Below, in pieces: positions 29,774 through 32,642 of a stretch of DNA of 34,320 bases (its first letter is position 1; the number at the start of each line of letters is the position of its first letter). The notes below the pieces were generated by a model. The model ran no database searches. It was not told where the DNA came from and worked only from the letters and a program-made list of their open reading frames with translations. Origin of the DNA: Prevotellaceae bacterium. Lineage in GTDB: Bacteria > Bacteroidota > Bacteroidia > Bacteroidales > UBA932. The position numbers were made by a program, and so were the translations under genes. The stretch covers positions 1 to 34,320 of the forward strand of contig JAITFU010000068.1 in assembly GCA_031281125.1 (NCBI GenBank), given 5' to 3'.

Positions 29774-29802
29774 GCCGATTATTTGTTTTATTTGGCTCAA
29801 AA
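29768..29802 (+). terminator. Hairpin overlapping GT2 stop, probable terminator
   Basis: TTTTGAGCC-N17-GGCTCAAAA, 9-bp perfect stem; no strong downstream T-run. Confidence 0.45.
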
Positions 29803-29805
29803 GTG

Positions 29806-29813
29806 TATCTTTG
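29806..29813 (+). promoter_or_regulatory. Orphan + strand promoter-like element TATCTTTG with TTG at 29783-29785
   Basis: TTG-N20-TATCTTTG; no + strand gene follows. Confidence 0.35.
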
Positions 29814-29847
29814 CGCCGAATAATCCTTAGATTCGGCTCATACATTA

Positions 29848-31311
29848 TCAAATCTCCAACCTCCCCTCTGAGGGCTCTTTGTAGGCGTTTGCTAATTTTA
29901 GATAGTTGTTGATTTTATCAAAGTCAGAACCAATGATGTGGGTTGAAAAGTGTTGGAGTTTATCCATGACACGAATAAAGGCGTCCGGCTCTTTTTGGTT
30001 GGTCAATTTTTTAAGAGATAGAAGGTAATCTTCTCTGTAAACGGTGGGTACAATAATGCGCGTTTGTCCGCTTTTAAAGAGTTCTGCGTTCCCCATCAAA
30101 CGCGATACCCTTCCGTTACCATCTGTAAAGGGGTGAACTTCAGATACCAAAAACATCATAAAGATCGCTTTTGACATGGGGTCACTCAGGGCTGCATAAT
30201 ACTTAAATCCCTGCCTTAATGTTCCTTCGACTAAGGTGTAATCGGTAAATTCCGTGTTTCCTGCTCTGTTGTTTTGGGTTTTAAAGACTCCTGCGTTCAC
30301 CTCCTCCGCCCTGCCGGCCATCATGATTACATGGCGGCGTTTTAATATTTCAATCAGATTATCTGCGGTTACAGGAGTGGTGCTCATCTCAAAGCTATTG
30401 GATACAATCTCAAATGTTCCTAAGATATCGTGAGAATCCTTTATCCTTTTGGGAAGGGCAAGGCCGGTATCGACAATCTTCTTGGCCTCTTCAACAACAA
30501 ACTCCGTACCCTCTATGTAATTAGAAAAATAGGCTTCAAAAAAGGAGAACAAGCGAAAAGAGGCCTCCGACCTGTTGTTATCCGGCCGCTCCGGAAAATA
30601 GGCGTTGCATAACTTATCATACAGAATTTCAAACAGTTCGACTCGTTTTGGGTCGTATGGCACTCCCGCGGCCCTGGCTTTGGCAGAATCAGAACTTAAT
30701 ACGTATGCGGGGCGCGTCTTTAACAAAGCCGATATTATGCCGTTTAGCTTGTCAAATTCTTGATTAAGATTTAGCTGAAAAGCAATCTCTTTTGCTTTAT
30801 CTCTGAATCTATTGATGCCTTCTTCTCCTTCTCGGATAATGATTTTTTCTAACCTCTCTTCGATAAATTCGATGGGGAAATTTTTGGATTCGCTGCCCTT
30901 CTTCCTCGAAATTTGCATATTTTCGAGCATCCACCTCCACTCTGACGAAACATGGAGTCCTCCTATGTTTATATCGGATTCCAATGGAGGTTTTCCTTCC
31001 ATTACGTTGAGTATAATTCCTTTAAAATTGGTTATTCTTTTTGAATAATGATCGGTTATAAAAAAGTGTCCCGACTCCGTTGGCCTCAATTCCAAGGCGC
31101 TCCGATGGCTGATGACCGCGTGTGGAAATCGCCATTTGAGGATGTCAAAAAAATGACGTTTAATGATATGCTCCGCACTATCCAATAAATTGGTAGTATA
31201 TATTTTAGGTGCTATTTTTTTTATTTTACCTTCCTTTTCTGCCCTACTGATTTGATTAGAGATGCTTTTATCCGAAGAGGCGAAGATGATTTCCTGTGGA
31301 ATTTTTTCCAT
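29848..31311 (-). CDS. Fic-domain protein with AbiEi-like winged-helix N-terminal region
   Basis: HPFTDGNGRVSR Fic core; FSNYIEGTEF = (S/T)xxxE(G/N) inhibitory motif; N-terminus ISNQISRAEKEGKIKKIAPKIYTT...AVISHRSALEL resembles AbiEi-type antitoxin wHTH. Confidence 0.9.
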   Translation of the reverse strand: MEKIPQEIIFASSDKSISNQISRAEKEGKIKKIAPKIYTTNLLDSAEHIIKRHFFDILKWRFPHAVISHRSALELRPTESGHFFITDHYSKRITNFKGIILNVMEGKPPLESDINIGGLHVSSEWRWMLENMQISRKKGSESKNFPIEFIEERLEKIIIREGEEGINRFRDKAKEIAFQLNLNQEFDKLNGIISALLKTRPAYVLSSDSAKARAAGVPYDPKRVELFEILYDKLCNAYFPERPDNNRSEASFRLFSFFEAYFSNYIEGTEFVVEEAKKIVDTGLALPKRIKDSHDILGTFEIVSNSFEMSTTPVTADNLIEILKRRHVIMMAGRAEEVNAGVFKTQNNRAGNTEFTDYTLVEGTLRQGFKYYAALSDPMSKAIFMMFLVSEVHPFTDGNGRVSRLMGNAELFKSGQTRIIVPTVYREDYLLSLKKLTNQKEPDAFIRVMDKLQHFSTHIIGSDFDKINNYLKLANAYKEPSEGRLEI

Positions 31312-31381
31312 GATAACGACTATTTGGGCGCAAAAATAGGAATTTTTTCCATTATAGCCCTATTTTTGTGGAATTTTTTCC
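31298..31381 (-). promoter_or_regulatory. Three-box operator-like array GGAAAAAATTCC at fic start region
   Basis: Identical 12-mers (GGAATTTTTTCC on +) at 31298-31309, 31339-31350, 31370-31381; the first covers fic codons 1-5. Confidence 0.7.
31331..31338 (-). promoter_or_regulatory. -7 element (TATTTTTG) for fic
   Basis: CAAAAATA on + strand 20 bp upstream of fic ATG, abutting operator-like box 2. Confidence 0.45.
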
Positions 31382-31382
31382 T

Positions 31383-32642
31383 TTATAACACATCCAACAC
31401 CTGCTCCAAGCGTTTCCCTCGAGATCCCTTTATCAAAATGGTGGCGCCGGTCAAAGGATGCTCCAATAGATAATTCCTCAACTTTTCGACTGTATCGAAT
31501 GTATTCCCCAACCTTGTCCCAACCAAAAACGCCTGCCCAATCACCCCATTTTTCTGTAACGACACCAATCGCTCCACCAAGATCCGATGCTCTCGCTCCG
31601 AATCGAGACCAAGCTCCAACATATCGCCAAGAATCACCACCTTATTTTCTGCTTGAAGCTGTTCAAAATTATCCAAGGCCGCCGCCATACTGGTGGGGTT
31701 AGCATTATAAGCGTCTATAATCAACGTATTTTTTCCCGTTTGTTTCCACTGAGAACGGTTATTGGAGGGTACATAACCACTAATGGCAACCGCTGCCGCC
31801 TTGTGATCCACACCAAAAACAGCCCCCACCGCCAACGCCGCCAATACGTTGTCGGCATTATAAGCGCCCACCAATTGGGTTTCGATCAACGGATATCCCG
31901 GTACAGAAATCCGCAAAAAAGGAAAAGCGGAGTCAACCGGAAGAACAGAGGCCTTTTGGTGATTTAATCCGTAGAAATGTCTCTCTTTTTGCCCTCCCCT
32001 CTCTTTGGCCATTCCACACAAAAGGGGATTGTCGGCATTTACAAAAAGCGTTTGGGCAACCTCGTAGAGGGCGCCTTTGGTTTGCATTACCCCTTCTAAA
32101 GAGCCAAATCCCTCAAGGTGCGCTTTCCCTACATTGGTAATCAAGCCGTAGTCGGGCCAGGCGATGGCCGCCAACTGGGCAATCTCTCCCGGATGGTTGG
32201 CACCCATCTCTACCACCGCCACCTCTGTGGCCGTATCCATACGCAACAGGGTCAACGGAACGCCAATATGATTGTTCAAGTTGCCCGACGTAGCGCACAC
32301 CTTATAACGAGTCGATAACACTGCAGCAATCAACTCTTTAGTCGTTGTCTTTCCATTGGTGCCGGTGAGCGCCACCACGGGAAGACCCAGCGCCTCCCTG
32401 TGCCGGCTTGCCAACTGTTGCAGCGCCTCCAACACATCGGGAACCAAAATAAACCGCTCTCCCTTTGCCACCGGCCTGTCAATCACTGCATACGCAGCGC
32501 CGGCCTCAACAGCTTTTTGTGCTTTGTCTTTGCCGTCAAAGTTGTCTCCTTTGAGGGCAAAAAAGATGTCGCCGGGTGTAACGTTTCGGCTATCGGTCGA
32601 AACAGAGAGATGCTCCAAAAAAATATTGTATAAATCTTTCAT
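31383..32642 (-). CDS. murF: UDP-N-acetylmuramoyl-tripeptide--D-alanyl-D-alanine ligase
   Basis: VALTGTNGKTTTKELIAAVL, NLNNHIGVPLTLL, EMGANHPGEIAQL, IIDAYNANPTSM. Confidence 0.97.
   Translation of the reverse strand: MKDLYNIFLEHLSVSTDSRNVTPGDIFFALKGDNFDGKDKAQKAVEAGAAYAVIDRPVAKGERFILVPDVLEALQQLASRHREALGLPVVALTGTNGKTTTKELIAAVLSTRYKVCATSGNLNNHIGVPLTLLRMDTATEVAVVEMGANHPGEIAQLAAIAWPDYGLITNVGKAHLEGFGSLEGVMQTKGALYEVAQTLFVNADNPLLCGMAKERGGQKERHFYGLNHQKASVLPVDSAFPFLRISVPGYPLIETQLVGAYNADNVLAALAVGAVFGVDHKAAAVAISGYVPSNNRSQWKQTGKNTLIIDAYNANPTSMAAALDNFEQLQAENKVVILGDMLELGLDSEREHRILVERLVSLQKNGVIGQAFLVGTRLGNTFDTVEKLRNYLLEHPLTGATILIKGSRGKRLEQVLDVL

Follow-up and report, generated by a model that had tools for sequence, protein, structure and literature searches.

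A predicted AbiEi-like module joined to a class II Fic domain in one chain, with an operator-like three-site array at the start of its gene

CccR of Yersinia pseudotuberculosis, a Fic protein with a C-terminal helix-turn-helix (HTH), represses its own gene (PMC9755527), so that repression of its own gene by a Fic protein is already known. In CbFic2 of Coxiella burnetii, which belongs to class II and has an HTH, both AMPylation and deAMPylation are stimulated by DNA (PMC10628234). Class II Fic proteins have an inhibitory helix whose glutamate keeps ATP from binding productively (PMC3667792), and AbiEi proteins act as repressors of their operons, binding to repeats in the promoters (PMC7319586). 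Here, a gene of a Prevotellaceae bacterium is described in which an AbiEi-like module and a class II Fic domain share one chain. The gene lies in a stretch of 34,320 nucleotides (positions 1 to 34,320 of contig JAITFU010000068.1, assembly GCA_031281125.1), referred to below as the window.

Domain architecture of the fic product

The gene and the parts of its product are as follows.

29848..31311, minus strand: fic gene, 487 aa, AbiEi-like module and class II Fic domain (open reading frame; Pfam Fic; full length kept in about 60 relatives)
31186..31311, minus strand: shortened winged-helix part of the N-terminal module, residues 1-42 (AF2 model; PADLOC AbiEi models; VIA-align to 6y8q over 1-194)
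30697..31185, minus strand: domain like the C-terminal (nucleotidyltransferase-like) domain of AbiEi, residues 43-205 (VIA-align)
30508..30525, minus strand: inhibitory-helix motif SNYIEG (S263-G268), class II (conservation in 60 sequences)
30085..30348, minus strand: Fic core, residues 322-409 (Pfam PF02661; fold of FICD)
30100..30135, minus strand: Fic motif HPFTDGNGRVSR, residues 393-404 (sequence and conservation)

The open reading frame starts with ATG, and it and the motif strings quoted for it in an earlier note on this DNA are all present. Fic is the sole Pfam domain in the protein (E 3.4e-10, residues 322-409). Among PADLOC models, PDC-S04 (a candidate defence family; E 4e-21) and SoFic (E 1e-14) match the Fic part, and several AbiEi models hit the region of residues 10-84 (E 1e-4 to 1e-2). 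The AF2 model of the whole product, built from 37 relatives, has a pLDDT of 91.7.

The earlier note had proposed an N-terminal winged helix of the AbiEi type, and structure prediction bears this out: residues 1-205 modelled alone (AF2) reach a pLDDT of 92, and the best solved match in VIA-align is the Streptococcus agalactiae AbiEi 6y8q (Z 9.8, 159 residues over 1-194), followed by MenT1 8an5 (Z 7.4) and Rv2827c 1zel (Z 6.3). The best solved match in Foldseek is likewise S. agalactiae AbiEi (E 4e-3). Because of these Foldseek and VIA-align matches, the module is taken to contain both AbiEi domains, an N-terminal winged HTH and a C-terminal AbiEi domain within residues 1-194, and not a winged helix alone; the note was thus right about the presence of an AbiEi-like module and understated its extent. 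The winged HTH is short in the model, consisting of a strand (8-10), one helix (15-26) and wing strands (31-39) within residues 1-42, with the first helix not evident. Likeness at the level of sequence is weak, also to the AbiEi-like proteins of the same genome: one AbiEi model is matched by 13/37 family members, Pfam AbiEi_4 is matched weakly by 4/37, and the module profile gave only chance-level matches against the sequences of solved structures. Residues R70, D113, R126 and E130 of the module are invariant in 60 aligned sequences, and in 394 Bacteroidota genomes its profile was matched solely in Fic-carrying frames, fragments in three genomes (G044, G248, G319) excepted.

A class II inhibitory motif in the same chain as the Fic core, also proposed earlier, is well founded. 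The (S/T)xxxE(G/N) motif stands N-terminal to the Fic core, and the core carries HxFx(D/E)GNGRxxR. Across the 60 aligned sequences no substitution occurs at S263, E267 and G268 in the inhibitory motif or at H393, N399 and R401 in the Fic motif, and conservation of R404 is 98%, indicating that the two motifs are not chance strings and fitting class II Fic proteins. The Fic part of the AF2 model aligns with FICD (Z 22.8). The SoFic model matches all 37 family members scanned (37/37), but the NCBIfam SoFic equivalog cut-off is not reached (18.9 bits vs 550), and no HTH match was found C-terminal of the Fic core in Pfam or in the AF2 model of the full protein. Taken together, the models predict a putative DNA-binding antitoxin module of AbiEi type fused N-terminal to a self-inhibited Fic enzyme in a single chain.

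Distribution and genomic setting

Full-length relatives occur in about 60 fetched loci from Bacteroidota, Pseudomonadota, one actinobacterium and one Marinimicrobia MAG, and relatives, some of them fragmentary, in 43/395 genomes of the phylum. Those in 31 named contigs belong mostly to Bacteroidales MAGs and also to Ferrovum, Azoarcus, a Solirubrobacterales MAG and a Marinimicrobia MAG; plasmid-borne relatives are found in Bacteroides, Hymenobacter, Novosphingobium, Rhizobium, Variovorax and Alteromonas. Where annotation is present it reads only 'Fic family protein'. The AbiEi-Fic fusion is thus a common and widespread architecture and not a one-off case. Phage records gave no match to the fic product, and viral contigs one partial relative.

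In the window, fic sits among housekeeping genes, between a glycosyltransferase gene and murF. Within the genus its distribution is patchy: 2/3 congeners carry fic, on contigs other than that of their murF, and in one congener the glycosyltransferase gene and murF are directly convergent, 10 bp apart, at the position occupied by fic in the window. The window fic is an accessory insert. The same place (window 29774-31382) holds a different insert in the congener G396 (L095, about 600-1520); this seems to be a nucleotidyltransferase/HEPN-like pair, with a copy of the murF 3' end (CTTTCCTTTACAATAATTCCAGCGCC) on either side. The 3' end of murF has the look of a hotspot at which toxin-antitoxin genes insert. 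At 29774-29847 of the window, between the glycosyltransferase gene and the fic stop, the plus strand contains a -7-like box, TATCTTTG, and GAGCCGA/TCGGCTC repeats point into the fic 3' end, an arrangement reminiscent of an antisense transcript or of what is left of a promoter.

The neighbours of the relatives are mixed, with some toxin-antitoxin, integrase and defence genes among them (DUF6088 in 4/105, HipA, BREX ATPase), counts that come without a background rate, so that these genes are context and not proof of a role in defence. In L038, L039, L042 and L078 the fused gene has a DUF6088 gene nearby, AbiEi-like and free-standing, and on a plasmid of Variovorax sp. WDL1 (L086) a HipA-domain gene and an SOS-response peptidase gene stand between two Fic genes.

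No conserved partner emerged from this comparison. Neighbour clustering over 60 loci found no gene family common to more than five of them, and no small open reading frame recurs among the loci as a hidden antitoxin would, in keeping with the earlier proposal that the system has no separate antitoxin gene. No AbiEii match, and hence no adjacent AbiEii toxin gene, was found on the contig that carries fic (C96). The same assembly (G000) contains four AbiEi-AbiEii pairs, on contigs C8, C97, C131 and C151, the AbiEii match on C97 having an internal stop; its AbiEii genes pair with these other AbiEi genes and not with fic.

An operator-like array upstream of fic

Upstream of fic, and reaching its start codon, three similar sites and a candidate promoter box were recognized.

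31370..31387, minus strand: operator-like site 1, TATAAAGGAAAAAATTCC (direct repeat)
31339..31356, minus strand: operator-like site 2, TATAATGGAAAAAATTCC, 31 bp downstream of site 1 (spacing conserved)
31331..31338, minus strand: TATTTTTG, candidate Bacteroidota -7 promoter box directly after site 2 (sequence; same offset in 16 Bacteroidota loci)
31298..31315, minus strand: operator-like site 3, TATCATGGAAAAAATTCC, 41 bp downstream of site 2, overlapping the start codon (spacing conserved)

The sites are direct repeats and not inverted repeats of the kind that form AbiE operators. The arrays of relatives have the same spacing and other site sequences, e.g. TTATAATGGAAAAAATTT, TTAAAnCCCGAATnTTTA or ACACGACAA, the site sequence changing by clade while the spacing stays constant. 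The spacing statistics rest on 27 loci of less than 75% identity. In these, self-match at lags 31, 41 and 72 gave z values of 13.7, 9.4 and 6.2; over 200 shuffles z never exceeded 4.2 at any lag, and in six control regions it stayed at or below 1.1 at both lag 31 and lag 41. The pair (31, 41) ranks first of 2,116 spacing pairs (Z 21.1) and keeps that rank when only the 10 loci from outside Bacteroidota are taken (Z 8.8); (31, 40-42) is among the top three pairs in 20/27 loci. The array is missing or degenerate in L067, L078 and L083-L085. An apparent further copy of the site lies upstream of fic in L012, L013 and L044, and the array may be extendable.

Since 31 and 41 bp are about 3 and 4 helical turns, the sites would lie on one face of the DNA. 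A TAnnTTTG box starts 18-21 bases from the start of site 2 in 16 loci, all of Bacteroidota (a count without a chance rate), and from this position site 2 would overlie the promoter. An exact copy of the 12-base core GGAAAAAATTCC occurs at one other place in the assembly, near-matches to the site elsewhere in the genome are few, and no second array was seen. Five AbiEi-like genes and a further two of Fic type from this genome served as controls; none shows all three lags 31, 41 and 72. Co-variation of the site with the winged HTH gave a partial correlation of 0.25 given the Fic part, and with the Fic part 0.49 given the winged HTH.

Conservation of the three-site spacing in distantly related bacteria suggests that the fic product may switch off its own gene; both binding of the array and repression are inferred here from sequence. 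Autorepression would be the simplest reading by analogy, because AbiEi proteins (PMC7319586) and CccR (PMC9755527) are autorepressors, and the idea of a built-in repressor, which the earlier note had put forward with no mention of this promoter element, gains independent support from the element's conservation. The array, and not the fusion as such, is the surprising part.

Proposed function and comparison with known systems

The explanation that we favour, and consider fairly probable, is that the gene, mobile and without a partner, encodes a Fic AMPylase that is held back at two levels by parts of its own single polypeptide. At the first level, the AbiEi-like N-terminal module would bind the three sites over the promoter and start codon, keeping transcription low; at the second, the inhibitory helix (S263-E267-G268) would hold the Fic active site in an unproductive state. 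Once repression or inhibition is lifted, the Fic domain would modify a cellular target and, like other bacterial Fic toxins, would probably slow growth. Against this reading stand the shortness of the winged HTH, the direct orientation of the repeats where known AbiEi operators have inverted ones, and the loci in which the array is missing or degenerate. Here AMPylation and toxicity, and with them the trigger, the purpose and any role in defence, are what we infer.

The role in defence or stress suggested by the earlier note is not supported in the form in which it was proposed, and the window fic lies among housekeeping genes. That the protein is nonetheless an anti-phage effector of the SoFic/PDC-S04 kind is a real possibility, albeit one we lean against: both PADLOC models match it, SoFic throughout the family, and some relatives adjoin defence or toxin-antitoxin genes, but the NCBIfam score falls short of the cut-off, the C-terminal HTH is lacking, and the location beside murF and the mixed neighbours of relatives do not single out defence. 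The N-terminal module could instead serve mainly to bring the enzyme to DNA or to dimerise it there, and so control catalysis, with autorepression secondary. CbFic2 (PMC10628234) is a class II precedent with an HTH; this alternative seems unlikely, as an array of conserved spacing at the gene's own promoter in distant loci, with few near-matches and no second array seen elsewhere in the genome, points to specific binding at that promoter.

Two further alternatives would take the protein or the array out of this frame. The protein could be a regulator like FICD and no toxin, its inhibitory glutamate serving an AMPylation/deAMPylation switch on one client protein; the invariance of that residue agrees with this, and among solved Fic cores those of FICD and its homologues come nearest in both sequence and fold, but the patchy distribution and the plasmid and accessory locations fit a mobile effector better than a core regulator, and we consider it quite improbable. 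Very improbable, in our estimate, is that another host regulator binds the repeats, or that they form a composite promoter, and that the N-terminal module serves only for inhibition or substrate docking. It is true that site 1 and the unit TATAAT look like promoter elements, and site similarity tracks the Fic part as closely as the winged HTH; against this, the array accompanies fic in unrelated hosts and insertion sites and the other AbiEi-like and Fic-type genes of the genome lack its three lags, and constant spacing combined with a clade-specific site sequence is not expected from a host regulator.

The favoured explanation, of an AMPylase held at two levels, also admits a bolder form, offered tentatively and regarded as rather doubtful: a toxin-antitoxin system of one gene and broad spread, whose Fic toxin has come under the control, in cis, of a co-opted AbiEi antitoxin module, with operator geometry fixed across phyla and the recognition sequence drifting. 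If this is true, activation of Fic could dislodge the protein from the DNA and end repression of the gene in a single step. In either form, AbiEi regulators and class II Fic enzymes, both of them well studied, are joined in a widespread architecture that comes with a putative operator. Should the fic product read this operator, promoter occupancy would be a simple readout of what turns class II Fic enzymes on, and the constant spacing with drifting site sequence would offer a natural series on change of winged-helix specificity.

Among open-licence papers, a scope in which a description may be missed, none was found on an N-terminal AbiEi-Fic architecture. SoFic/EcSofic (PMC12249575) shares the class II Fic domain, there a toxic effector in phage defence, and differs in having a C-terminal domain instead of the AbiEi module and a small downstream antitoxin gene, AS1, whose counterpart was not found at the fic loci. 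FICD/HYPE provides the closest solved Fic core, with the same inhibitory glutamate, but is a eukaryotic enzyme acting on BiP and is without an AbiEi module. The AbiEi antitoxins (6y8q, 1zel) share the two-domain fold of residues 1-194 and a multi-site promoter element; they are free-standing and paired with an AbiEii nucleotidyltransferase toxin, whereas here the module is fused, and their operators are 23-bp inverted repeats (PMC7319586) as against three direct repeats at 31 and 41 bp. CbFic2 likewise combines a class II Fic protein with a DNA-binding domain, but its HTH is C-terminal and of DeoR type, DNA stimulates its activity, and no array at its own promoter is reported in the available part of the source (PMC10628234). 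CccR resembles the AbiEi-Fic protein in having Fic and a DNA-binding domain in one chain and in repression at its own promoter, which is proposed for the present gene; it differs in its C-terminal HTH, in the absence of an AbiEi module, in being type VI secreted and in an operator of two inverted 10-bp repeats 26 bp apart (PMC9755527). What is new here is the AbiEi module at the end opposite to the CccR HTH, together with a different putative operator.
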